A stretch of 64,000 bases of DNA, from contig NZ_AUFT01000018.1 of assembly GCF_000426645.1 (NCBI RefSeq), positions 1-64,000 of the forward strand. Direction: 5' to 3'. The DNA is from Nakamurella lactea DSM 19367. GTDB taxonomy: Bacteria > Actinomycetota > Actinomycetes > Mycobacteriales > Nakamurellaceae. This document shows, piece after piece, positions 51,850-64,000 of the stretch (the stretch's first letter is position 1; the number at the start of each line of letters is the position of its first letter). A program made the translations under genes and the position numbers. The notes beneath the pieces were generated by a model that saw nothing but the letters and a program-made list of their open reading frames with translations, was not told the DNA's origin and made no database searches.

Positions 51850-52713
51850 TCAGGTCGGCGTCAGCGCCAGTCTGGCGAACACCAGCGACTGGGCGATGTC
51901 GTCCTCGCGCCGCCGCCGCGACAGCCCACGGGTGCTGATCTCGGCACACACCGCACCACGGAAATCATTGCGCACCAGGCCCTCCAGCAACTCGGTGCAC
52001 GGTTGGGTGCCGCGTCCGGGGACCAGGTGCTCGTCCTTTCCTGACCCCGAGCCGTCGGCCAGGTGAATGTGCGCGAGGCCGGATCCCATCTGTTCGGCCA
52101 GCTGCAACGCGTCGGTACCCGAGGTGGCGGTGTGCGACAGATCCAATGTGTAGTACCGATGCCCGGACGGCACCGGATTCCAGTGCGGCCGATAGCTGTT
52201 CACCCGAACGCCAGGGGTGAACCGGCTGCTGCCGACGGTCAGCGGAAACATGTTCTCCACCGCGATCTTCACCTGTGTCCGGGCCTGCAACTCGGCCACC
52301 GAGGCGGCGAAGTCGGTCGACGCCGCCCGCTGCCAGACGAACGGCGGATGTACCACCACCACCGAAGCGCCGACCCGCTCGGCCAGCTCCAGCGAGCGGG
52401 CCAGCTTGACCAGCGGATCGGTCGACCACACCCTGGCCGTCACCAACAGGCACGGCGAGTGGATCGAGACGATCGGTAGCTCGTACCTGTCCATCAAGCG
52501 CCGCAACGCGTCCGCATCCTGGGTGAGCGGATCCGCCAGCACCATCAGCTCCAGCCCGTCGAAGCCGATCTCGGCAGCCATCGCGAAGGTGGTGCCGGTC
52601 GACTCCGGAAATGCCGAGGCGGTGGACAGGGTCACCGGGATCGAGGGCCGTAGCGGGGGGCGTTCGGGATAGCCGCCGACATCGGGGCCGCGATCGGGGC
52701 CGGTAGCGGTCAC
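51850..52713 (-). CDS. Sugar phosphate isomerase/epimerase-like TIM-barrel protein
   Basis: This 287-residue protein from GTG 52713 overlaps the ppx stop (GTGA). The xylose-isomerase-like barrel shows AAEIGFDGLELMVL, LPIVSIHSPCLL, ERVGASVVVVHPPF, VKIAVENMFP, YYTLDLSHTATSG, LAHIHLADGSGSGKDEHLVPG and AVCAEISTRG, with metal-site residues His, Glu, Asp and His. The neighbourhood ppx - TIM-barrel gene - regX3/senX3 is also seen in mycobacteria. The substrate is unknown. Confidence 0.82.
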   Translation of the reverse strand: MTATGPDRGPDVGGYPERPPLRPSIPVTLSTASAFPESTGTTFAMAAEIGFDGLELMVLADPLTQDADALRRLMDRYELPIVSIHSPCLLVTARVWSTDPLVKLARSLELAERVGASVVVVHPPFVWQRAASTDFAASVAELQARTQVKIAVENMFPLTVGSSRFTPGVRVNSYRPHWNPVPSGHRYYTLDLSHTATSGTDALQLAEQMGSGLAHIHLADGSGSGKDEHLVPGRGTQPCTELLEGLVRNDFRGAVCAEISTRGLSRRRREDDIAQSLVFARLALTPT

Positions 52714-53645
52714 GGTCCGAACGCCAACTGGTCGAGACGTCGCAGGATGACGCCCTCCCGCAGTGCCCACGGGCAGATCTCCACCTCGGAAAGTCCCAGG
52801 GCCGTCACCGCCGCCTCCGCGATCAGCGCGCCGGCCGGGATCTGCGGCGCCCGATTCGGCGAAACCCCTTCCAGACAAGCGATATCCGCCGCGGTCATCC
52901 GCTGCAGGAACGCCGACACCTGGCGCAGGCCGGCCGCCGTCAGCACCCGCTGTACCCGGGGTCCGGCGCTGGACGGTGCGGCGCCGGTCAGCCTGGCCAA
53001 CGTCCGGAACGTCTTGGAGGTGGCCACCACCCGATCGAACGGACCGGCCGCCTTGATCTGCAGCCGGGCCGCGGCCAGCCGCTCCGTCAACCATTCCTTG
53101 AGCTCGCCGACCTGGGTCGGGCTCGGCGGATCGGCCAACTGTCGGTCGCGGTGCAGCCGACCGGCTCCCAACGGCAACGACAACGCCACCTCGGGCTCTT
53201 CGTCCTTGCCGGCCGCGATCTCCAGCGAGCCGCCACCGATATCCAGTACCAGCAAGTTTCCCGCACTCCAGCCGTACCACCGGCGGGCGGCCAGGAACGT
53301 CAGCCGGGCTTCATCGGGACCCGGCAGCACCTGTAGATCGACCCCGGTCAGCGTTCGGACGTGGTCAAGCACATCCGAGGCGTTCGACGCGTCCCGGACC
53401 GCCGAGGTGGCGAATGCCAGTAGTTCGGCGCAGCCCAGCCGGGCGGCGGCCTGGGCGGCCTCGCCGACCGCGGCCAGCAGGGCGTCCTTTCCCTGGTCGC
53501 TCAGGATCCCGGCATCGTCCAGGTGCTCGGCCAGTCGCAGGCCGGTGCTCTGCGAGAGCTGCGGCGTCGGATGCCCACCCCGGTGGGCGTCGACCACCAG
53601 CAGATGCACGGTGTTCGACCCGACATCCAGTACGCCAAGTCGCAT
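52710..53645 (-). CDS. ppx: Exopolyphosphatase/guanosine pentaphosphatase (Ppx/GppA)
   Basis: This 311-residue protein hydrolyses polyphosphate or pppGpp. It has the ASKHA-type motifs VLDVGSNTVHLLVVD at the N-terminus, FATSAVRDASNASDVL, GPDEARLTFLAARRWYGW and VLDIGGGSLEIAAGKD. It is the short form (about 310 residues) typical of actinobacterial Ppx1. It lies 48 bases after regX3 on the same strand... its gene precedes the TIM-barrel gene and is upstream-flanked by regX3, which links phosphate sensing and polyphosphate use. Confidence 0.9.
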   Translation of the reverse strand: MRLGVLDVGSNTVHLLVVDAHRGGHPTPQLSQSTGLRLAEHLDDAGILSDQGKDALLAAVGEAAQAAARLGCAELLAFATSAVRDASNASDVLDHVRTLTGVDLQVLPGPDEARLTFLAARRWYGWSAGNLLVLDIGGGSLEIAAGKDEEPEVALSLPLGAGRLHRDRQLADPPSPTQVGELKEWLTERLAAARLQIKAAGPFDRVVATSKTFRTLARLTGAAPSSAGPRVQRVLTAAGLRQVSAFLQRMTAADIACLEGVSPNRAPQIPAGALIAEAAVTALGLSEVEICPWALREGVILRRLDQLAFGP

Positions 53646-53693: not shown

Positions 53694-54374
53694 TCACCCC
53701 TCTAGTTTGTAACCGAGGCCGCGGACGGTGATCAGGTGTCGCGGCGCTGCCGGGTCCGGCTCGATCTTCGCCCGCAGCCGTTTGACGTGGACGTCAAGGG
53801 TCTTGGTATCGCCGACGTAGTCGCTACCCCACACCCGGTCGATCAGCTGCCCCCTGGTCAGTACCCGGCCGGAATTGCGCATCAGGTACTCGAGCAGGTC
53901 GAACTCCTTGAGCGGCAAGGTGATCTCGCTGTCACCGACGCTGACCACGTGCCGCTCGACATCCATCCGCACCGGTCCGGCCGACAGCACGCTCTCGTCC
54001 AGGTCCTCGGGTTCCGTGCCGCGCCGCAGCACGGCCCGGATCCGGGCGATCAGCTCCCGTGAGCTGTACGGCTTGGTCACGTAGTCGTCGGCGCCCAGCT
54101 CCAGCCCGACCACCTTGTCGATCTCCGAGTCGCGGGCGGTCACCATGATCACCGGCACCGCCGCGCGTTGCCGCAGTTGCTTGCACACCTCGGTGCCGCT
54201 CATTCCGGGCAGCATCAGGTCCAGCAGGACGATGTCGGCGCCGGCCCGGTCGAACTCGAGCAACGCATCGGGGCCGGTGGAGGCGGTGGTGGTGGTGAAA
54301 CCCTCCCGGCGCAGCAGGAAGGCCAACGGCTCGGCCATCGACTCCTCGTCCTCGACGATCAGCACCCTGGTCAC
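53694..54374 (-). CDS. regX3: Phosphate-responsive response regulator RegX3
   Basis: This 226-residue OmpR/PhoB-type regulator has a receiver domain (VLIVEDEESMAEPLAFLLRREGF, phospho-acceptor Asp in ADIVLLDLMLPGMSG, Thr/Lys in MVTAR and DDYVTKPY) and a winged-helix domain (LPLKEFDLLEYLMRNSGRVLTRGQLIDRVWG, KTLDVHVKRLRAKIE, ITVRGLGYKLEG). GTG 54374 overlaps the senX3 stop and has GAAGGAG upstream. In mycobacteria RegX3 activates phosphate-starvation genes through PHO-type repeats; such repeats lie upstream of senX3 here. Confidence 0.93.
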   Translation of the reverse strand: MTRVLIVEDEESMAEPLAFLLRREGFTTTTASTGPDALLEFDRAGADIVLLDLMLPGMSGTEVCKQLRQRAAVPVIMVTARDSEIDKVVGLELGADDYVTKPYSSRELIARIRAVLRRGTEPEDLDESVLSAGPVRMDVERHVVSVGDSEITLPLKEFDLLEYLMRNSGRVLTRGQLIDRVWGSDYVGDTKTLDVHVKRLRAKIEPDPAAPRHLITVRGLGYKLEG

Positions 54375-55630
54375 GTTGCTCCTTCTCGTTGTCCTGCAGA
54401 TTCGATCAGCGATGCCCGACGGTCGGCACCGCCGGCGTTGGTGGCGGCGGCCGGGTCCGGCTGCGCCGGTCGTGCGGTGTCGACCGTCTCCGGCAGCTGC
54501 GGCAACCGCAGGGTGAACGTCGAGCCGGTGCCGGCCCGGCTCCACAGCAGTGCCTGCCCGCCGTGGTTGGCCGCGACATGCTTCACGATGGCCAGCCCCA
54601 GTCCGGTGCCACCGGTGGCCCGTGACCGTGCCGGGTCGACCCGGAAGAACCGCTCGAACACCCGCTGCTGATGTTCCGGCGCGATGCCGATGCCGCGGTC
54701 CGTCACCGAGATGTCGATGCTCCCGTCGCGGCTGGACCTGGTGACCGACACCGGGGTCCCGGGCGGGGAGTAGCTGATGGCGTTGTCGATCAGGTTGGTC
54801 AGCGCGGTCACCAGCAGGGTCCGGTCGCCGCGCACCAGCAACCCGGACAGCGGGTCGCTGATCACCGTGATGCCGGCGGTCTCGGCCACTGTCTCCAGCC
54901 GGCCCATCGCCTCGGCCACCACAGCGTCCACCTCGACCACCGCCAGGTCCTGCAGCGGCAGCCCTCCCTGTAATCTGGACAACGCGATCAGCTCGTTCAC
55001 CAGGGCGCCGAGCCTGGTCGACTCGGCGAGCATCTTGCCGGCGAAATGCCGCACCGACTCCTCGTCGTCCGAGCCGTCCAGCACTGCCTCGGCGAGCAGC
55101 GCGATGGCACCGACAGGCGTCTTCAGCTCGTGCGAGACGTTCGCCACGAAGTCACGCCGGATGGTCTCGACCCGGCGGGCGGCGGACTCGTCCACCGCGC
55201 TCACCAGGATCATCTCGGCGCCCAGCGGCTGGGCGACCGCATGCACCATCGACGGGTCACCGGCGTCATCGACGGGGCTGCCGCCGGCGGTGGTGTCGGC
55301 GGCGGGCTGCATCGTCCCGAGATCGACATCGATCGGCTCGCCGGACACCCCCGTCCGGGCGATCGCTTCGAGCACCCGGGTGTCGGGCATGCCCGCCCTG
55401 ACCACCCGCAGCTCGCGGGCGCGCTGGTTGGCCAGCAGCACGTTGCCGCCGCGGTCCGTCACCAGGTAGGCGCTGTCCGAACGGGCGACCACCTCGGCGG
55501 CCAGCGCCGCGTCCTGGTGCGAGGTGGCGTCGACGCGCGGCCCCTCCGCTCGCCGGATGAGAACCGCGGCGAGCAACCATCCCAGCAGCACTCCGCAGAG
55601 CGCGACAGCCAGGTATCCGACCCACGGCAC
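54371..55630 (-). CDS. senX3: Sensor histidine kinase SenX3
   Basis: This 419-residue kinase has one clear N-terminal membrane helix (VGYLAVALCGVLLGWLLAAVLI), a PAS-like domain (about 50-150), the dimerisation helix with the phospho-acceptor His in FVANVSHELKTPVGAIALLAEAVLDG, and an ATPase domain with NLIDNAISYSPPG, DRGIGIAPEHQQRVFERFFRVD and TGGTGLGLAIVKHVAANHGG. GTG 55630 lies 6 bases after a TACGAT box (probable leaderless start). It forms an operon with regX3. Confidence 0.92.
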   Translation of the reverse strand: MPWVGYLAVALCGVLLGWLLAAVLIRRAEGPRVDATSHQDAALAAEVVARSDSAYLVTDRGGNVLLANQRARELRVVRAGMPDTRVLEAIARTGVSGEPIDVDLGTMQPAADTTAGGSPVDDAGDPSMVHAVAQPLGAEMILVSAVDESAARRVETIRRDFVANVSHELKTPVGAIALLAEAVLDGSDDEESVRHFAGKMLAESTRLGALVNELIALSRLQGGLPLQDLAVVEVDAVVAEAMGRLETVAETAGITVISDPLSGLLVRGDRTLLVTALTNLIDNAISYSPPGTPVSVTRSSRDGSIDISVTDRGIGIAPEHQQRVFERFFRVDPARSRATGGTGLGLAIVKHVAANHGGQALLWSRAGTGSTFTLRLPQLPETVDTARPAQPDPAAATNAGGADRRASLIESAGQREGAT

Positions 55631-55691: not shown

Positions 55692-55740
55692 GTTCACCCG
55701 CTGTTCCGCCAGCCGTTCATCGGCCGTTCACCCGTAATGT
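55692..55740 (+). promoter_or_regulatory. PHO-box-like direct repeats and TAATGT promoter box before mraY
   Basis: Four 11-base units start at 55692 (GTTCACCCGCT), 55703 (GTTCCGCCAGC), 55715 (GTTCATCGGCC) and 55726 (GTTCACCCGTA), with one extra base between the second and third. This is the GTTCACC-type repeat array recognised by PhoP/RegX3 regulators in actinobacteria. TAATGT follows at 55735-55740 in the direction of mraY, so the last repeat would overlap the -35 region, the usual layout of an activated promoter. The senX3 start is 62 bases away on the other side and may be controlled as well. Confidence 0.75.
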
Positions 55741-55790
55741 GCGTTGACCGCGGTGGCAGCGCCCCCGAACGAGAGGCTGGAACCGACCCC

Positions 55791-56885
55791 ATGAAGAGCA
55801 TCCTGATCGCGGCCGTGGTCGGGCTGATCGTGGCGGTGACCTTGACACCGTTCCTGATCAAGCTGTTCTCCCGACCCGGCTTCGGCCAGGAGATCCGCGA
55901 GGAAGTCAAGCAGCACCAGGCCAAGCGCGGCACCCCGACCATGGGCGGCGTCGCCATCCTCATCGCCATGTGGATCGGGTACCTGGTCTCGGTGATCGTC
56001 CGGATGATCACCGAACGCGGCGGCGGCCCGACCGCCTCGGCCTGGCTGCTGCTGTTCCTGACCACCGGTTGTGGGCTGGTCGGCTTCCTGGACGACTTCA
56101 TCAAGATCCGTAACAAGCGCAACCTCGGTCTGCGGCAGCGGGCGAAACTGATCGGCCAGACCCTGATCGCGGTGACCTTCGGGATCGGCGTGCTGCTGTT
56201 CCGCAACGACTTCGGCCTCACCCCGGGATCGGTGCGGCTGTCCTACACGCACGACCTGAAGTTCATCACCTTCGGCGCCATCGGCTTCGTCATCTTCGCC
56301 GTGCTGCTGATCGCCGCCTGGACGAACGCGGTGAACTTCACCGACGGCCTGGACGGGCTGGCCGCCAGTTCATCGGTGATGGTGCTCGGCAGTTACGTGG
56401 CGATCTGCTTCTTCCAGTTCCGCAACGCCTGCTGGGTCCTGCCGGCCAACAGTGCCGCCTATCCCGGCTGCTATGCCGTGCGGGATCCGCTCGACCTGGC
56501 CGTGGTGGCCGCCGCCGCGGTCGGCGGCTGCGTCGGCTTCCTGTGGTGGAACGCGCATCCGGCCCGGATCATCATGGGCGACACCGGCTCGCTCGCGCTG
56601 GGCGGCATGATCGCCGGTCTGTCGATCCTCACCAAGACCGAACTACTGCTGGTGGTGATCGGCGGCCTCTTCGTCATCGAAATGGCCTCCGACATCATCC
56701 AGATCATCGGCTACAAGACCCGCAAGATCCGGATCTTCAAGATGGCACCGTTCCACCATCACTTCGAACTGTCCGGGTGGGCGGAGACCACGATCTTCGT
56801 GCGGTTCCTGCTATTGGCCGCGGTGTCGGCGGCGATCGGTCTCGGCCTGTTCTACGCGGACTGGCTCTCGCTGACCGGCGGTTGA
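55791..56885 (+). CDS. mraY: MraY-like phospho-N-acetylmuramoyl-pentapeptide transferase, outside a mur cluster
   Basis: This 364-residue integral membrane enzyme has about ten helices and makes lipid I. All key motifs are present: QAKRGTPTMGG, GFLDDFIKIRNKRNLGLRQRAKL, AWTNAVNFTDGLDGLAASSS, GDTGSLALGG and the His cluster APFHHHFELSGW. ATG 55791 is the natural start; the earlier frame from 55737 crosses the promoter. No mur, fts or other wall genes flank it. It is wedged between senX3 and gpmA, genes adjacent in mycobacteria, and points the other way. It may be a second copy under phosphate control. Confidence 0.9.
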   Translation: MKSILIAAVVGLIVAVTLTPFLIKLFSRPGFGQEIREEVKQHQAKRGTPTMGGVAILIAMWIGYLVSVIVRMITERGGGPTASAWLLLFLTTGCGLVGFLDDFIKIRNKRNLGLRQRAKLIGQTLIAVTFGIGVLLFRNDFGLTPGSVRLSYTHDLKFITFGAIGFVIFAVLLIAAWTNAVNFTDGLDGLAASSSVMVLGSYVAICFFQFRNACWVLPANSAAYPGCYAVRDPLDLAVVAAAAVGGCVGFLWWNAHPARIIMGDTGSLALGGMIAGLSILTKTELLLVVIGGLFVIEMASDIIQIIGYKTRKIRIFKMAPFHHHFELSGWAETTIFVRFLLLAAVSAAIGLGLFYADWLSLTGG

Positions 56886-56914: not shown

Positions 56915-57658
56915 TCAGCGGCCCTGGTTCGCCACCGCCTGGGCGGCCTCGGCCGCCGCCGCCGGGTCCAGATACAAACCGCCTGGGGTGACGGGCTTCA
57001 GATCCGCGTCCAGTTCGTACTTGAGCGGGATGCCGGTAGGGATGTTCAGGGCCGCGATGGCGTCGTCACTGATCCCGTCCAGCAGCTTGACCGTGGCCCG
57101 CAGCGAGTTGCCGTGGGCGACCACGATCACGGTCTTGCCGGCCTTCAGGTCGTCGGCGATCGGGCCGTACAGGTACGGCTCCAGTCTGACGACGACGTCG
57201 GCCAGGCATTCGGTGGTCGGGGCGTCGGCGCCGAGGTCGGCATACCGCGGGTCGCCGGCCTGCGAATACTCGTTGTCGGCGCTGATCGGCGGCGGCGGCA
57301 CGTCGTAGCTGCGCCGCCACAGCATGAACTGCTCCTCGCCGTAGGTCTGCAGGGTCTGCTTCTTGTCCTTGCCCTGCAGGTCGCCGTAGTGACGCTCGTT
57401 CAGCCGCCAGTGCCGGCGCACCGGAATCCAGTGCCGGTCGGCGGTGTCCAGCGCCAGGTTCGCGGTCGAGATGGCCCGCCGCAGCACCGAGGTGTGCAGC
57501 ACGTCCGGCAGCAGGTTCTGCTCGGCGAGCAGCTCGCCGGCATGCCTCGCCTCCCGCTCACCGGTCTCCGACAGCGGCACGTCCACCCAGCCGGTGAACA
57601 GGTTCTTGGCGTTCCAGGTGCTCTCGCCGTGGCGCAGCAGGATGAGGGTCGAGGTCAT
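56915..57658 (-). CDS. gpmA: 2,3-Bisphosphoglycerate-dependent phosphoglycerate mutase
   Basis: This 247-residue glycolytic enzyme interconverts 3- and 2-phosphoglycerate. The catalytic His is in [12 protein letters not shown], followed by [43 protein letters not shown]-like sequence and the second His in [12 protein letters not shown]. In mycobacteria the order gpm1-senX3-regX3 is conserved; here the mraY-like gene interrupts it. Confidence 0.94.
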
Positions 57659-57695: not shown

Positions 57696-59753
57696 TCAGG
57701 TGCGGGTCACCAGGGTGAAGCCTCCCGGCAGCACCGGCACCGTCATCGATTCGCCGCCGGCGGCGAATCGGGCGATCGTCCGCCCGGCGGAGTCGTAGAC
57801 CCCGACGGAGGCCGGGCCGGACCCGGCGAGGGCGACCTTCCGCAGCTCGGGGCTGCGCGACTTGGACGTCAGCAGCGCGGTGGCGGCGCCGTTGCCGTCG
57901 GCGACCAGCGTCGCGACCTCCGGCATGACCATCAGCGCATCGATCCGGCCGGTACCGCCGCCGGTGGTGGCCGTCACCGTGGTCTGCCCGGCTCGCGCCG
58001 TCCGGCTCAGCGCAACCGGCATCAGCATCCCGGCCGATTGCGCCTGGCCCTGAGCACCGACGCCGCCGAAGTCGACGGAACCGAGTGGACGGCCGCCGTC
58101 GGTGAACCGGGTCCGCGCCGTCGCGCCATGCAGCTGCTCGACGACGGGCTGCACCAACCGCGGCTGGTCGGCCGCCGGCAACTGCCAGCTCACCGTCGAA
58201 CCCGCCGTCACCTGCACGGCGTCACCGCTCCACAGCGACTCGCCGGTCCAGGCCGGATCGGGGGTGACGATGCTCGCCCCGCCCGACACCGCGCCGGTTT
58301 CGGCCTCGATCACCTGCAGCCCGTCCCGCTGCCGGATGTTCGCGGACGAGCGGGCCAGCGCAGCGAGGTCGGGATGGGCGTCGAGCACCTGCATGCTCAT
58401 CAGGCCATGAATGGTGGACTCGGCGCCGGAGTTGCGGTTCACCGTTCCGTCGGGCTGGACGCCGTCGTTGGTCACCCCGGTCTCCGGGTGATAGACGGCG
58501 ACTCCGGCGGCGTTCGCGCCGAAGAACCAGCCGGCCGCCACTGCGGCAAGCGCGGTGATGCCCGGCCGCCGGCTCGCCGCGCCGACGGTGGCCGCGGCCT
58601 GCACCCTGGCGTCGGCGCCGTAGGCGATCTGGGTGGCGTCGGTGGGCAGCGGCAGCAGCCCGTTCACCGGACCGGTCGAGGTGAGCAGCTGGGGGGTGAA
58701 GCCGGCGGCATCGGCGATCGCCGGCCGCAGCAACGCCGGATCGTGCAGCGCGGCAGCGGCCGCGGCCAGCCCGGACGGCATCTGCGCACCCCAGGCATGC
58801 CAGTCGGAGCGGGACAGCGCCCATGGCAGCAGCGCGCGGTAGGGCCACTGGGTGATGCTGCCGGCCGACATCTCGGCCACGCCGCGAGCCAGCTTCTTCA
58901 GGGCTGACGACGCGGTCCGGGTCCCGGGACCGGCGGCCTTGACGTAGGCGGCCAGGCCGAGCATCGCCTCGGACGAGGCGTCGGCCCCGTCGACGATCAG
59001 CCAGGCCGGCACCCGAACCCCGTGGATCACCTGGTACTTCCCGTAGTCGCCGAGCACGTCGCGGTTGAGGGCGGCGACCGTCAGCTGCATTCTTTCGGCC
59101 AAGAACGCCGCAAAGGAGGGATCGGCCTTCTTGAAAGCCGCATACCCCTCGCCGTAGGCCCATAGGGTCCGGGCCAGCCAGTAGCTGGCGTCAGAGTCCG
59201 CCGGGTTCGGCGAGTCCGGCGGGGTGGGTGTCGGGTTCAGCGAGCCGTCCGGCTGCATCCACAGCACGCCCTCGCCGGCGTGCGGGCCGGTGGCCGTCTG
59301 GAAGTAGGCAACGCCGCGAAGCTGTTGATAGGCCTGTTCTTTCGCGTGGGCATTGCCGGTCGCCTGCCACTCGCGCAGGTAGACGACGGCCGCCCTGGTC
59401 ATGTCGTCGCTGTCGTAGGAGCCCTGCCCCCAGTGGCCGGTCGCCGGATCGAGACCGCCGCCGCCGACCCGTTCGAAGGTGCCGCCGTCCCTGGCGTCCG
59501 CATAGACCCAGATCACGCCGATCTGCGGATCGGCGGCCAGCCGGTAGGTGGTGTGCGCCGCGGTATCCGGCACGGCCACCCGGTCGGTGAGCCAATCCAG
59601 GTGGTCGAGGTTGGTGAGCCGCTGCGTCGGGGCCGGGTGGGCTGCGGCTGCCGAATCGGTGGTGGCGGCGAGCGCGGGTGCGGCGCTCAGTGTGCTGAGC
59701 AGCAGGGTGCCGGCCACCGCAGCACTCCTCCCGCGGGTGAGAACTGACGTCAT
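57696..59753 (-). CDS. Secreted protein, probable helical-toroid glycan-active enzyme with C-terminal beta domains
   Basis: This 685-residue protein starts at ATG 59753 and overlaps the GH130 stop (ATGA). The signal peptide ends near [10 protein letters not shown] (residue 30). Residues about 45-480 look like an (alpha/alpha) barrel: [86 protein letters not shown] and [19 protein letters not shown]. Residues about 490-620 resemble a carbohydrate-binding beta-sandwich ([26 protein letters not shown]). I do not recognise the family. The operon partners GH130 and a sugar importer suggest that it cuts mannose-containing glycans outside the cell. Confidence 0.7.
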
Positions 59754-60844
59754 TGTCCGTTCCTTTCGGTGAGCAGTTCGGCCACGCCGATCTTCGAATC
59801 GGCCATTCCGTAGAAGACGAACCGGCGGCCGTCGATCTCTTCGATCGCGGTGGGAAACACCACGTTCGGCACGATTCCGCTGCGCTCGTCGTCGGTCTCC
59901 GGCGCCAGTAACGGATGTTGGGTCCGGTTGAGTACCCGGCTCGGGTCGTCGGCGTCCAGCAAGATGGCCCCGGCCGCGTAGTTCACCCGCTGCTGCTGGT
60001 CGGTATCCGCCGACAGCTCGCCGGTGACGCCGTGATGGATCAACAGCCAGCCCTCCGGAACCCGGATCGGCGGCGGCCCGCCGCCGATCTTGAGCGCCTC
60101 GAAGTCCATCTCGGCGAACGCGACCGGTCGGTGCTGCGACAGATGTGCCAACGCGCCGGGGTCGGCGCGCACCGCAGCTGCCGGTGCATAGGAGATCCAG
60201 ATACCGGGCCGGTTGTCGGTGATCCCGTGCGGCAGCGGCTCGCCGGCGCCGGCCGCGATCCACGACAGGTCCCACATCGGCCGGTGCAGCATCGCGAACG
60301 CCTCGGTGCCGTCCGGCGCCGTCACCGGTTCGGGGAAGATCAGCACGTCCTTGTTCGGGTACAGGTTCAGGTCGGTGTCCAGGTCGGCCTGGTACTCGAA
60401 GTGCAACGGCCCCAATCGATCCCACTGCCGCAGGTCCTTCGACACGGCGAGCGCCGGGCGGGGGCCGAGCGGCCCGTAGGCGACGTACGTCATCAGGTGC
60501 ACACCCAGGTCCGCGACGTAGGTGGTCCTGGGATCCTCGACCCCGGCATGGTCGGCACCCCGTTCCCAGCCGGCGTCCGGCTCCAGCACGACGCCCTCGC
60601 GTTGCACACCGACCGGGACGCCGTCTGAGACCAGCACCTTGGCCAGCCCGACTCTGGACAGGTTGCCGTCGGCCACCAGGCGGGGCAACAGGTACAGGGT
60701 GCCGTCGGCGTCGCGGCCACTGGCCGGATTCAGCACCCCCTCGGCCTCCCTGGGGTCGTCGGGATCGGGCGACATGATCACCCCGATCCGGCGCAGGGTG
60801 TACGGAAAGGGGGCCGCGGTCGGCTCGTCGACGGGGTCAGTCAT
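59750..60844 (-). CDS. GH130 family mannoside phosphorylase/hydrolase
   Basis: This 364-residue cytoplasmic enzyme shows the five-bladed propeller of GH130: EGVLNPASGRDADGTLYLLPRLV, GVEDPRTTYVADLGVHLMTYVAYGPLGPRPALAVSKDLRQW, NKDVLIFPEPV, AMLHRPMWDLSWIA and GWLLIHHGV, ending with VVFPTAIEEIDGRRFVFYGMAD. Family members phosphorolyse or hydrolyse beta-mannosides. Which subfamily this is cannot be said without an alignment of phosphate-binding residues. It follows the permease gene by 4 bases. Confidence 0.85.
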   Translation of the reverse strand: MTDPVDEPTAAPFPYTLRRIGVIMSPDPDDPREAEGVLNPASGRDADGTLYLLPRLVADGNLSRVGLAKVLVSDGVPVGVQREGVVLEPDAGWERGADHAGVEDPRTTYVADLGVHLMTYVAYGPLGPRPALAVSKDLRQWDRLGPLHFEYQADLDTDLNLYPNKDVLIFPEPVTAPDGTEAFAMLHRPMWDLSWIAAGAGEPLPHGITDNRPGIWISYAPAAAVRADPGALAHLSQHRPVAFAEMDFEALKIGGGPPPIRVPEGWLLIHHGVTGELSADTDQQQRVNYAAGAILLDADDPSRVLNRTQHPLLAPETDDERSGIVPNVVFPTAIEEIDGRRFVFYGMADSKIGVAELLTERNGQ

Positions 60845-60848
60845 GAGG

Positions 60849-61766
60849 TCATCCCTTCACGCCCGACCCGAGATCGGTCGAGACGAAGTGTCGCTGGAAC
60901 AGAATGAACAGCACCACCGCGGGTGCGGCGAGGATCACCGCGCCGGCCAGGATCGCGCCGTACGGGTTTGCCACGCTGGAGGCGACGTTGGAGATGTAGT
61001 TCGCCAGCGCCACCGCGAGTGGTTGCTTGTCGGGCTGTTTGGTGATCAGGAAGGGCCACAGGAACTCGTTCCAGGGTCCGATGAAGGTCAGCAGCACGGC
61101 GGTCAACAACGCCGGACGGACCAGTGGCAGGGCGATCGACCACAGCGTTCGCAGTTCGCCGGCACCGTCGATCCTGGCCGCGTCGAACAGTTCCTGCGGC
61201 AACTGCAGGAAGTACTGCCGGAAGATGAACACCGCCGTCGAGTTGATGGCGAACGGCAGGATCATCCCCAGGTACGAGTCGGACAGCCCGTAATCGCGGG
61301 CGATCAACACGTACAGCGGGATCATCAGCAGCTGGAACGGCACCACCTGGATCAGCACCAGGGCTGAGAACACCAGGCCGCGGCCGCGGAAGTGCAACCG
61401 GGCCAACGCGTATCCGGCGAGTACGCCGAACACCACGGTGCACAGCAGCACCCCGCCGGTGAAGATCCCCGAGCTGAGCAGGGCCTGCGGAATGTCCAGC
61501 CGGGAGTTGATCGCGGTGTAGTTCGACAGGCTCAGGTCGCCGAACCGTGGAAAGGCGCCGGCAATCGTGGTGTCCGGCGTCTTCTGGAACGAACCGACGA
61601 CCATGTAGTAGAAGGGGAACAGGAATGCCAGCGCGGCGATCAGCAGCAGGGTGATCCCGGCCCACCGCCCGATCGGTTTGGTGCGCCGCATGCTGCCGCC
61701 CGAGATGGGGCGACCGACTTCGGCCGGCTCGAGGCCGGTCCCGGCTGAAACTGCTTGCCCGGTCAT
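60849..61766 (-). CDS. Sugar ABC transporter permease (MalG type) of the GH130 operon
   Basis: This 305-residue permease starts at ATG 61766, overlapping its partner's stop (ATGA). Six helices run from WAGITLLLIAALAFLFPFYYMVVGSF to GAILAGAVILAAPAVVLFILF. The EAA loop is QELFDAARIDGAGELRTLWSIALPLVRPA. It works with the gene at 61763-62698 and the binding protein; no ATPase is encoded nearby. Confidence 0.9.
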   Translation of the reverse strand: MTGQAVSAGTGLEPAEVGRPISGGSMRRTKPIGRWAGITLLLIAALAFLFPFYYMVVGSFQKTPDTTIAGAFPRFGDLSLSNYTAINSRLDIPQALLSSGIFTGGVLLCTVVFGVLAGYALARLHFRGRGLVFSALVLIQVVPFQLLMIPLYVLIARDYGLSDSYLGMILPFAINSTAVFIFRQYFLQLPQELFDAARIDGAGELRTLWSIALPLVRPALLTAVLLTFIGPWNEFLWPFLITKQPDKQPLAVALANYISNVASSVANPYGAILAGAVILAAPAVVLFILFQRHFVSTDLGSGVKG

Positions 61767-62698
61767 CGGTTCCCCCGTTCGGTCAGGAAGCGGTTGATGC
61801 CGGCGATGATCAGCACCAGCACCATCAGGATCACGCCGATCGCGGCCGCCTGGTCCGGGTGGTTCTGCAGGATGCCCTTTTGATAGATCAGCAGCACCGG
61901 TGAGGTGGACGCGCCGTCCGGTCCACCGCCGCCGGTCAGCAGATACGGCTCGGTGAACAGGTTGGCGCCGGTGATGATCGCCAACAGCACGACCAGTCCG
62001 GTGGCCGGCCGAACGCCGGGAACGGTGACGCTCCAGAACGACTTCCAGGCGCCGGCGCCGTCGGTCGATGCCGATTCGTACAACTCCTTGGGCACGCTCT
62101 GCAAGGCCGCCAGGTACAGCAGGATGAAGAACCCCAACTGCTTCCAGGTGACGAAGAAGGCGATCATCGGCATCGCCCAGAAGCTGCTGACCAGCCAGCT
62201 CGGATCCGGCGCCAGCGGGCCGAGGATCGAGTTGACCAGGCCGTGCGAGTTGAACAGGAACAGCCACACCCCGACAACGGCGACGCTGGCCGTCACGTAT
62301 GGCACGTAGAAGGCCACCCGGAAGAAGGCCCTGGCCCTGATCGCCTTGTTCAGTGCCGTCGCGAGTACCAGCGACAGGATCACTGTCAGCGGGACGTTGA
62401 TCAGGATGAAGACGCCGACGTGGCGGAACGAGTCGAGCACGTCCGGATCCGTCAGCACCGATTTGTAGTTGTCCAGGCCGACGCCCGGGGTGGCGACCTT
62501 GACACCGGGGGCGGTGAAGCGGAACTTGTGGAAGCTCATCCACACCGCGAAGCCCAGCGGGAAGGCGAACACCACCGCGAGGAAGACCACGTACGGGGCC
62601 GACAACAGCAGCCCGATCGGCTGGCGGCCGACGACTTTCGCCATCAGGCCGCCGGCCGACCGCTGCCGCGACTGCGTCGTCGGGGCGATGGTCGACAT
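61763..62698 (-). CDS. Sugar ABC transporter permease (MalF type) of the GH130 operon
   Basis: This 311-residue permease has six helices (from IGLLLSAPYVVFLAVVFAFPLGFAVWMSF to GVILMVLVLIIAGINRFL) and the EAA loop KELYESASTDGAGAWKSFWSVTVPGVRPA. It starts 5 bases after the binding-protein stop. The glycan substrate is probably a mannose-containing oligosaccharide, judged from the GH130 enzyme downstream. Confidence 0.9.
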   Translation of the reverse strand: MSTIAPTTQSRQRSAGGLMAKVVGRQPIGLLLSAPYVVFLAVVFAFPLGFAVWMSFHKFRFTAPGVKVATPGVGLDNYKSVLTDPDVLDSFRHVGVFILINVPLTVILSLVLATALNKAIRARAFFRVAFYVPYVTASVAVVGVWLFLFNSHGLVNSILGPLAPDPSWLVSSFWAMPMIAFFVTWKQLGFFILLYLAALQSVPKELYESASTDGAGAWKSFWSVTVPGVRPATGLVVLLAIITGANLFTEPYLLTGGGGPDGASTSPVLLIYQKGILQNHPDQAAAIGVILMVLVLIIAGINRFLTERGNR

Positions 62699-62703
62699 GG
62701 TGA

Positions 62704-64000
62704 TCAGCCCGCGGCGAGCTTGTCGATCTGGGTGGCCGCGTCGGCGAAGGTGGACTGTGGGTCCGCCTTCCCGAAGATCACGGCCGTGCTCCAGGCCTTA
62801 CGGAAGTCCTGCCAGATCTCCACCGAGTTCGGCACGTTCGGCACCTCGACGGTGCGGGCGGCCTGCGAGGCGAATTCGGCGTACTCCGGGTTCTTCTTGA
62901 AGTAGTCGGCGTAGGTGGTGGGCAGGTCGGTCCGCAACGGCATCTGCCCGGTCAGCTCCAGCAGCTTGCCGTCCTGCTCCTCACTCGTGGCGAATTTCAG
63001 GAAGTCCCAGGCAGTGCCGGTGTTCTTGCACGAGGTGTACAGCCCGACGTTCTTGGCATCGGAGAAGGTGTGGATCTGATCGGCGGGCATCCCCTTGCTG
63101 GTCGGCACCGGGACCACTCCCCAGTTCACCTTGCCCTTGTAGCTGGCGATCGCCCACGGGCCGACGGTCGACATCGCGGCCTTGCCGTCGGCGAACGAAT
63201 CACCTTGGTACACCTCGGTTCCGGCCAGCTTGTCGGCGTAGATCTGCCGCCAGAAGTTGATGACGTTCATGCCCTCGGCCGAGGTGAACTGCGACTTCCC
63301 GTCGACGATCAGCTGCTTGCCGCCGGTCTCGGCGGCGAACATCGGGTAGAAGTCGAACCAGGGCTGATAGAAGTCGGCGCTGGGCGAGGGATAGATCGCG
63401 TACTGCGCCGCCTTGGAATCCACGACCTTCTTGGCCGTCGCCAGGAACTCGTCATACGTTGCAAGCGGTGGCTTGTCGGTGTCGATCCCGGCCTTGGTGA
63501 AGATGTCCTTGTTGTAAAAGATCATCACCGGATTCGACTTCCACGGCAGCTGGTAGTAGTGGCCGTCTGCGCTCTGGTACTGCTTGGCGACATCGGCGCC
63601 GGTGCGCGTCTCGATGTACGAGGCGCCGTCCGGGAACGAGCTGAGATCGACCAGGCCACCGGCGTCCTGGAACTGCGGAACCGCGGCCGGCGAGGTGTTG
63701 AAGATCAGGCACGGAGTGGTGCCCGCGGTGATCGCGGCGCCGATGGTCTCCTCGGACGACTTGCCCGCCGGGATCTCCTCGCCGGTCACTTTTTGGTCGG
63801 CGTGGGCGGCGTTCCAGGCGGCCACCACCTGTTTGCCCCAGGCGACCTCCTGCTCGTTGTTCGAGTACCAGATCTTGATCTCGCCGGTCGGCCCGACCGG
63901 GGCGGCCGCGCCGGCCGAACCGGTTGCCGCGCCGCCGGTTGCCGCGCCTGCGGTGGCGGCGCCGCCGGCCGGAGTGCTCCCGGCGTTGTCGCCGCCGCTG
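62704..64000 (-). CDS. Sugar ABC transporter substrate-binding protein (5' end beyond window)
   Basis: The minus-strand frame is open from the window edge to the stop at 62704, giving at least 432 residues. The start, signal peptide and lipobox lie outside. The visible N-terminal part is a Gly/Ala/Thr-rich linker (63900-64000) like that of lipoproteins. The binding domain has IKIWYSNNEQEVAWGKQMVAAWNAAH, LPWKSNPVMIFYNKDIFTKAG and FADGKAAMSTVGPWAIASYKG. It is the first visible gene of a five-gene operon running to 57696. Confidence 0.88.
   Translation of the reverse strand, partial: SGGDNAGSTPAGGAATAGAATGGAATGSAGAAAPVGPTGEIKIWYSNNEQEVAWGKQVVAAWNAAHADQKVTGEEIPAGKSSEETIGAAITAGTTPCLIFNTSPAAVPQFQDAGGLVDLSSFPDGASYIETRTGADVAKQYQSADGHYYQLPWKSNPVMIFYNKDIFTKAGIDTDKPPLATYDEFLATAKKVVDSKAAQYAIYPSPSADFYQPWFDFYPMFAAETGGKQLIVDGKSQFTSAEGMNVINFWRQIYADKLAGTEVYQGDSFADGKAAMSTVGPWAIASYKGKVNWGVVPVPTSKGMPADQIHTFSDAKNVGLYTSCKNTGTAWDFLKFATSEEQDGKLLELTGQMPLRTDLPTTYADYFKKNPEYAEFASQAARTVEVPNVPNSVEIWQDFRKAWSTAVIFGKADPQSTFADAATQIDKLAAG

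Follow-up and report, generated by a model that had tools for sequence, protein, structure and literature searches.

An extra mraY gene downstream of a candidate RegX3-type operator in the senX3–gpm spacer of a Nakamurella genome

MraY, an antibiotic target, catalyses the first membrane-bound step of wall synthesis, the making of lipid I. The two-component genes senX3–regX3 are autoregulated. The PHO boxes of Streptomyces are described, in passages from two papers (PMC4415409, PMC9019756), as 11-nt direct repeats with GTTCACC cores, and RegX3 sites, as quoted in a part of PMC7884335, are likewise 11-nt direct repeats with such a core. In Streptomyces, phoU is linked to phoR–phoP according to a passage in PMC7866108. 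Here we describe a locus whose parts (MraY, PHO boxes, RegX3 sites) are known and whose arrangement, gene duplication into an existing regulatory slot, is unusual. A literature search that had most subscription journals outside its reach returned no report of MraY paralogues, of a Pho-controlled mraY, or of a spare mraY combined with a phosphate operator. If true, capture of a second mraY by the phosphate regulon would tie the sensing of phosphate directly to the flux of peptidoglycan precursors. It would also clearly exemplify how a duplicated gene can capture a promoter, an old phoU-type operator slot having been refilled by an unrelated gene.

The window (the whole stretch of DNA analysed, 64,000 nt) represents contig C14 of a 5.82 Mb genome in 27 contigs, and the features considered here are:

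52710-53645, minus strand: ppx/gppA-type phosphatase gene (Pfam Ppx-GppA)
53694-54377, minus strand: regX3-type response regulator gene (Response_reg and Trans_reg_C above cut-off; PhoB/MtrA-type matches below equivalog cut-offs), its start placed by the conserved MTRVLIVEDE start
54371-55630, minus strand: senX3-type sensor kinase gene, divergent from mraY2 (HisKA and HATPase_c above cut-off; PhoR/PnpS-type matches below equivalog cut-offs)
55692-55736, plus strand: candidate PHO/RegX3-type operator of four GTTCACC-like units, pointing away from senX3 and towards mraY2
55735-55740, plus strand: TAATGT, a -10-like box of putative role, overlapping the last unit
55791-56885, plus strand: mraY2, extra MraY (lipid I synthase) of 364 aa (TIGR00445; 85% identity to the mur-cluster MraY)
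56915-57658, minus strand: gpm, phosphoglycerate mutase gene, convergent with mraY2 (NF010718 above cut-off)

On its two sides mraY2 is flanked by senX3–regX3–ppx and by gpm, minus-strand genes throughout and none of them a wall gene; family scans of the neighbours bear out the earlier note, which had seen an MraY without wall-synthesis neighbours between senX3 and gpm. The start of senX3 is 160 bp from mraY2, and phoU, with its own box, lies ~48 kb from the locus on the same contig. Elsewhere in the window, 57696-63828 holds a beta-1,2-mannobiose-phosphorylase-like gene (59750-60844, matches below curated cut-offs) and, by eye, sugar ABC transporter genes.

The units of the candidate operator are GTTCACCCGCT at 55692, the degenerate GTTCCGCCAGC at 55703, GTTCATCGGCC at 55715 and GTTCACCCGTA at 55726. 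What had been read as four GTTCACC-like 11-base units is thus four units as claimed, with actual spacings of 11/12/11 in place of a uniform 11; TAATGT does overlap unit 4 (55726-55736), as had also been said. Units 3 and 4 are exact GTTCACC-like matches 11 nt apart, the two-unit arrangement of a PHO box, and none of 100 dinucleotide shuffles of the 260 bp upstream of senX3 matched the motif as well. Scanning the genome for GTTCAYC-N4-GTTCAYC with 0–1 mismatch gave nine sites in 5.82 Mb, against two for the backward pattern used as control. Only two sites carry the exact core, the window operator and one 153 bp upstream of pstS, and a one-mismatch copy lies 43 bp upstream of phoU; both of these boxes face their own gene, in the same orientation as the operator towards mraY2. 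The PHO-type identity proposed for the repeats is upheld by this core, common to pstS (exact) and phoU (one mismatch).

The product of mraY2 scores 284.9 bits against TIGR00445, above the curated equivalog cut-off of 192.05. Its frame is open from an ATG at 55791, a start conserved with the cluster copy (an alternative in-frame ATG at 55737 lies inside TAATGT), and it contains both NFTDGLDG and HHHFE, so its first description as an intact MraY holds. Residues D101, D102, D185, D188, D264 and H322–H324 (DD, NxxDGLDG, MGD and HHH motifs) are identical to those of all 95 other MraYs compared, so that the catalytic-type Asp and His positions are kept. At 134 strongly conserved columns, each conserved in at least 95% of the 95 other sequences, MraY2 departs seven times and the cluster copy (MraY1) five times, against a median of one and a largest value of 10 among the 95; three of the MraY2 departures (G193S, V335I and W340L, the last also in MraY1) fall at columns exceptionless in the others. 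I261 aligns with F262 of Aquifex MraY, which stacks on uracil as an inhibitor contact according to a passage in PMC6606608, and D301 with V302, named as an inhibitor-contact residue in a part of PMC8954382. Isoleucine at the former position also occurs in the sole MraY detected in relatives G012 and G014, and aspartate at the latter in that of G001; because the same residues are found in the sole MraY of some relatives, I261 and D301 are compatible with MraY function. MraY2 is probably an active lipid I synthase.

Contig C17 carries a canonical mraY (mraY1), flanked by murF and murD in a murE–murF–mraY–murD–ftsW cluster. The earlier note had proposed looking for just such a second mraY in a mur–fts cluster; its presence makes the window gene an extra copy, and the idea that mraY2 is the sole mraY of the genome is rejected. 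A third match is weak (52 bits, under cut-off). MraY1 and MraY2 are 85% identical (310/365). Judged by MraY, the closest relatives with a species name are Nakamurella silvestris (75%) and N. leprariae (72%). Among 17 genus genomes searched, two copies occur in this genome and in G010 only. The extra mraY of G010 (L131:5565-6638) is lone and more diverged, 67% identical to mraY2 with NLSDGLDG and GDCGS variants, and lies near an sdhA gene, elsewhere than the senX3 slot and without a PHO box. As a separate observation on the mur cluster, a MurD match between mraY and ftsW is absent in five of the 17 genus genomes (G003 L092, G010 L093, G014 L096, G012 L099, G002 L100), the others having murD after mraY; murD may have moved in those five.

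A tree of 97 MraY sequences (MraY1, MraY2 and the 95 others, after three duplicate rows were dropped: L005 and L006, from the same contigs as G008 and G011, and L102, the same gene as MraY1) places the two copies as sisters (support 0.99), then joined by G016 (0.98), with G001 left outside at weak support (0.83 and 0.34). Trees built from SenX3, RegX3, MurF and rpoB, the last with 16 genomes and no sequence recovered from G015, group G000, G001 and G016 in one clade, its internal order conflicting or not resolved. Since the copies are sisters in the MraY tree and G016 joins them, the duplication is private to this lineage among the genomes compared. Horizontal acquisition of mraY2 is not favoured, the copies being sisters of similar GC content (0.650 and 0.659).

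Between the copies dS is 0.47 and dN 0.09 (NG86), and three-point branch estimates by the same method with eight outgroups give dN/dS of 0.17–0.32 for mraY2 and 0.10–0.22 for mraY1. Thus mraY2 is under purifying selection, mostly less tight than that on mraY1; taking G001 as outgroup gives the opposite ranking (0.17 for mraY2 vs 0.22 for mraY1). A pseudogene or decaying copy is rejected by the open frame and by dN/dS well below 1, as estimated by NG86 only. Upstream, the copies resemble each other over only 17 aligned columns by the ribosome-binding region (1–9 of 500 shuffles as good, depending on length), and downstream they show no similarity above chance. Because the upstream similarity ends at the ribosome-binding region, mraY2 would depend on local promoter sequence. 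Within the gene, window positions 56676-56714 (about codons 296–308, including the S-D-I-I-Q-I codons) match mraY of G001 while the flanks follow mraY1, a weak hint of recombination, with a permutation p of 0.016–0.11 that varies with window size; the longest residue run identical in both copies, 31, is of ordinary length (p 0.31).

The age of the operator can be read from relatives, in which it was called at no more than two mismatches with no more than two of 100 shuffles as good, and its distance measured to the approximate senX3 start. Eleven of 16 genus relatives carry it upstream of senX3, at 82–104 bp and in every case oriented away from that gene; the remaining five (G003, G004, G011, G012, G014) have no clear operator (3–6 mismatches). 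None of the 16 has mraY beside senX3, and 12 have gpm directly upstream of senX3. The repeats are therefore conserved in close relatives, a point that the earlier note had proposed to check, but they go with senX3 there and no mraY accompanies them; the note's view of them as mraY's own PHO-box promoter does not survive the count of 11 operators and no mraY. G016 keeps the four-unit 11/12/11 layout. Its gpm–senX3 spacer (L134:6732-9274) holds about three other predicted genes, so this spacer has taken in genes more than once.

Beyond the genus, 54 genomes of the order were sampled, 52 of which had a senX3 match, and loci were obtained for 23. Of these 23 loci, 22 have their best motif match on that same strand, though it is often weak (at most two mismatches in five, at most three in 16). 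No mraY occurs in any of the 23 loci, and phoU occupies the divergent slot in 10 (one locus, L184, is too short upstream to judge). As relatives have the operator without mraY and phoU fills the slot in other families, mraY came second: the operator has long belonged to the senX3/phoR locus, where it seems to be shared with a divergent phoU/phoR arrangement, and mraY2 landed beside a RegX3-type operator that was already there.

Promoter geometry bears on what this position might do. TAATGT begins 9 nt beyond the start of unit 4 and is absent from the equivalent place in the two closest relatives, G001 and G016. By eye, in four phoU promoters (L176, L177, L183 and that of this genome) a -10-like box starts about 26–38 nt after a good unit, although none at this spacing was seen for pstS, nor in every phoU locus. 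Upstream of mraY2 there is no -10 box at the phoU-type spacing by which a Pho-activated promoter was judged, and a sigma-70-type promoter scan found none. The TAATGT layout would fit repression or no effect as well as activation; RegX3 activation of mraY2 is possible, if unsupported by geometry, and RegX3 control in one direction or the other is plausible.

We favour, at a probability of roughly one half, the reading that mraY2 is a duplicate that landed at an older RegX3 operator in the phoU slot, is probably active, and is likely to have its expression influenced by RegX3. The mraY of the mur–fts cluster was duplicated as a single gene within this Nakamurella lineage, and the copy landed in the gpm–senX3 spacer, directly downstream of the older operator and in the slot held by phoU in other families. 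As it brought no detectable upstream sequence beyond the ribosome-binding region, its expression probably depends on the operator-containing spacer, where RegX3, and hence phosphate status, would be likely to act through binding, in whichever direction the response runs. Of this reading, the duplication, the open frame, the selection and the age, orientation and slot of the operator come from the computations themselves; enzymatic activity, RegX3 binding and a phosphate response of either sign are inferred. A fuller version, in which mraY2 joined the RegX3 regulon via the phoU slot as a second MraY with an altered uridine/hydrophobic pocket, used when phosphate and hence lipid-carrier/UDP-precursor turnover is limiting, we offer only tentatively.

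At the level of the order, mraY gave a match in 119 genomes, in 111 of which it was found once; second copies occur in eight of 121 genomes (E<=1e-70). Nine further lone mraY genes, including two from named genomes, all lack a good PHO box upstream: eight have five mismatches to the PHO core, and that of Nocardia uniformis has three, in a match on the other strand that 3 of 60 shuffles equalled. We thus reject the idea that spare mraY genes generally carry a PHO box, and the pairing of a spare mraY with a phosphate operator is a single-genome case. Both N. uniformis (L082:6001-7068) and Amycolatopsis anabasis (L063:6001-7077) have an mraY without mur-cluster neighbours in the DNA examined.

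It is conceivable, if on balance doubtful, that the landing was by chance and mraY2 is a spare copy that adds dosage or serves as a backup, its expression coming from read-through or a weak constitutive promoter, with no useful control by phosphate. Second copies do occur now and then in the order, the other lone ones lack a good box, the promoter geometry of mraY2 is not canonical and the same spacer took in other genes in G016; yet the site is the phoU slot, downstream of an operator that is oriented as the boxes of pstS and phoU are towards their genes. Control might instead be negative, RegX3 bound at unit 4 covering TAATGT so that cells would produce the extra lipid I synthase when phosphate is plentiful and stop when it is scarce, which reverses the sign of the earlier idea of induction by phosphate starvation. 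The overlap of unit 4 with TAATGT suggests as much, but TAATGT is a putative promoter that the sigma-70-type scan did not recover, and the pstS and phoU boxes, presumed activated, face the same way; we consider repression improbable. Least credible to us, and very unlikely, is that MraY2 serves as a less sensitive target protecting against nucleoside antibiotics. The alignment of I261 and D301 with Aquifex F262 and V302 prompts the thought, but each change recurs in the sole MraY of a relative, and there is no antibiotic-biosynthesis gene among MraY2 and its seven family-scanned neighbours.

Set against known systems, the duplicate at an older operator has several partial counterparts. A second murC in Frankia is also a peptidoglycan biosynthesis gene present in different types in an actinomycete (PMC7231273); it is another gene, and the opening of the abstract of that paper mentions no phosphate operator. 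MraY2 belongs to the same family as other MraYs (TIGR00445) and keeps their catalytic Asp/His positions, but it stands outside any mur cluster and departs at seven of 134 conserved columns. The candidate operator resembles the PHO boxes of Streptomyces PhoP and the mycobacterial RegX3 sites in its 11-nt direct repeats with GTTCACC cores and differs in one spacing of 12 and a degenerate unit 2. The divergent arrangement of phoU and phoR–phoP is a further counterpart: the position of mraY2 is the one taken by phoU in 10 of 23 other-family loci, but the gene is unrelated and its -10-like box differs in spacing.
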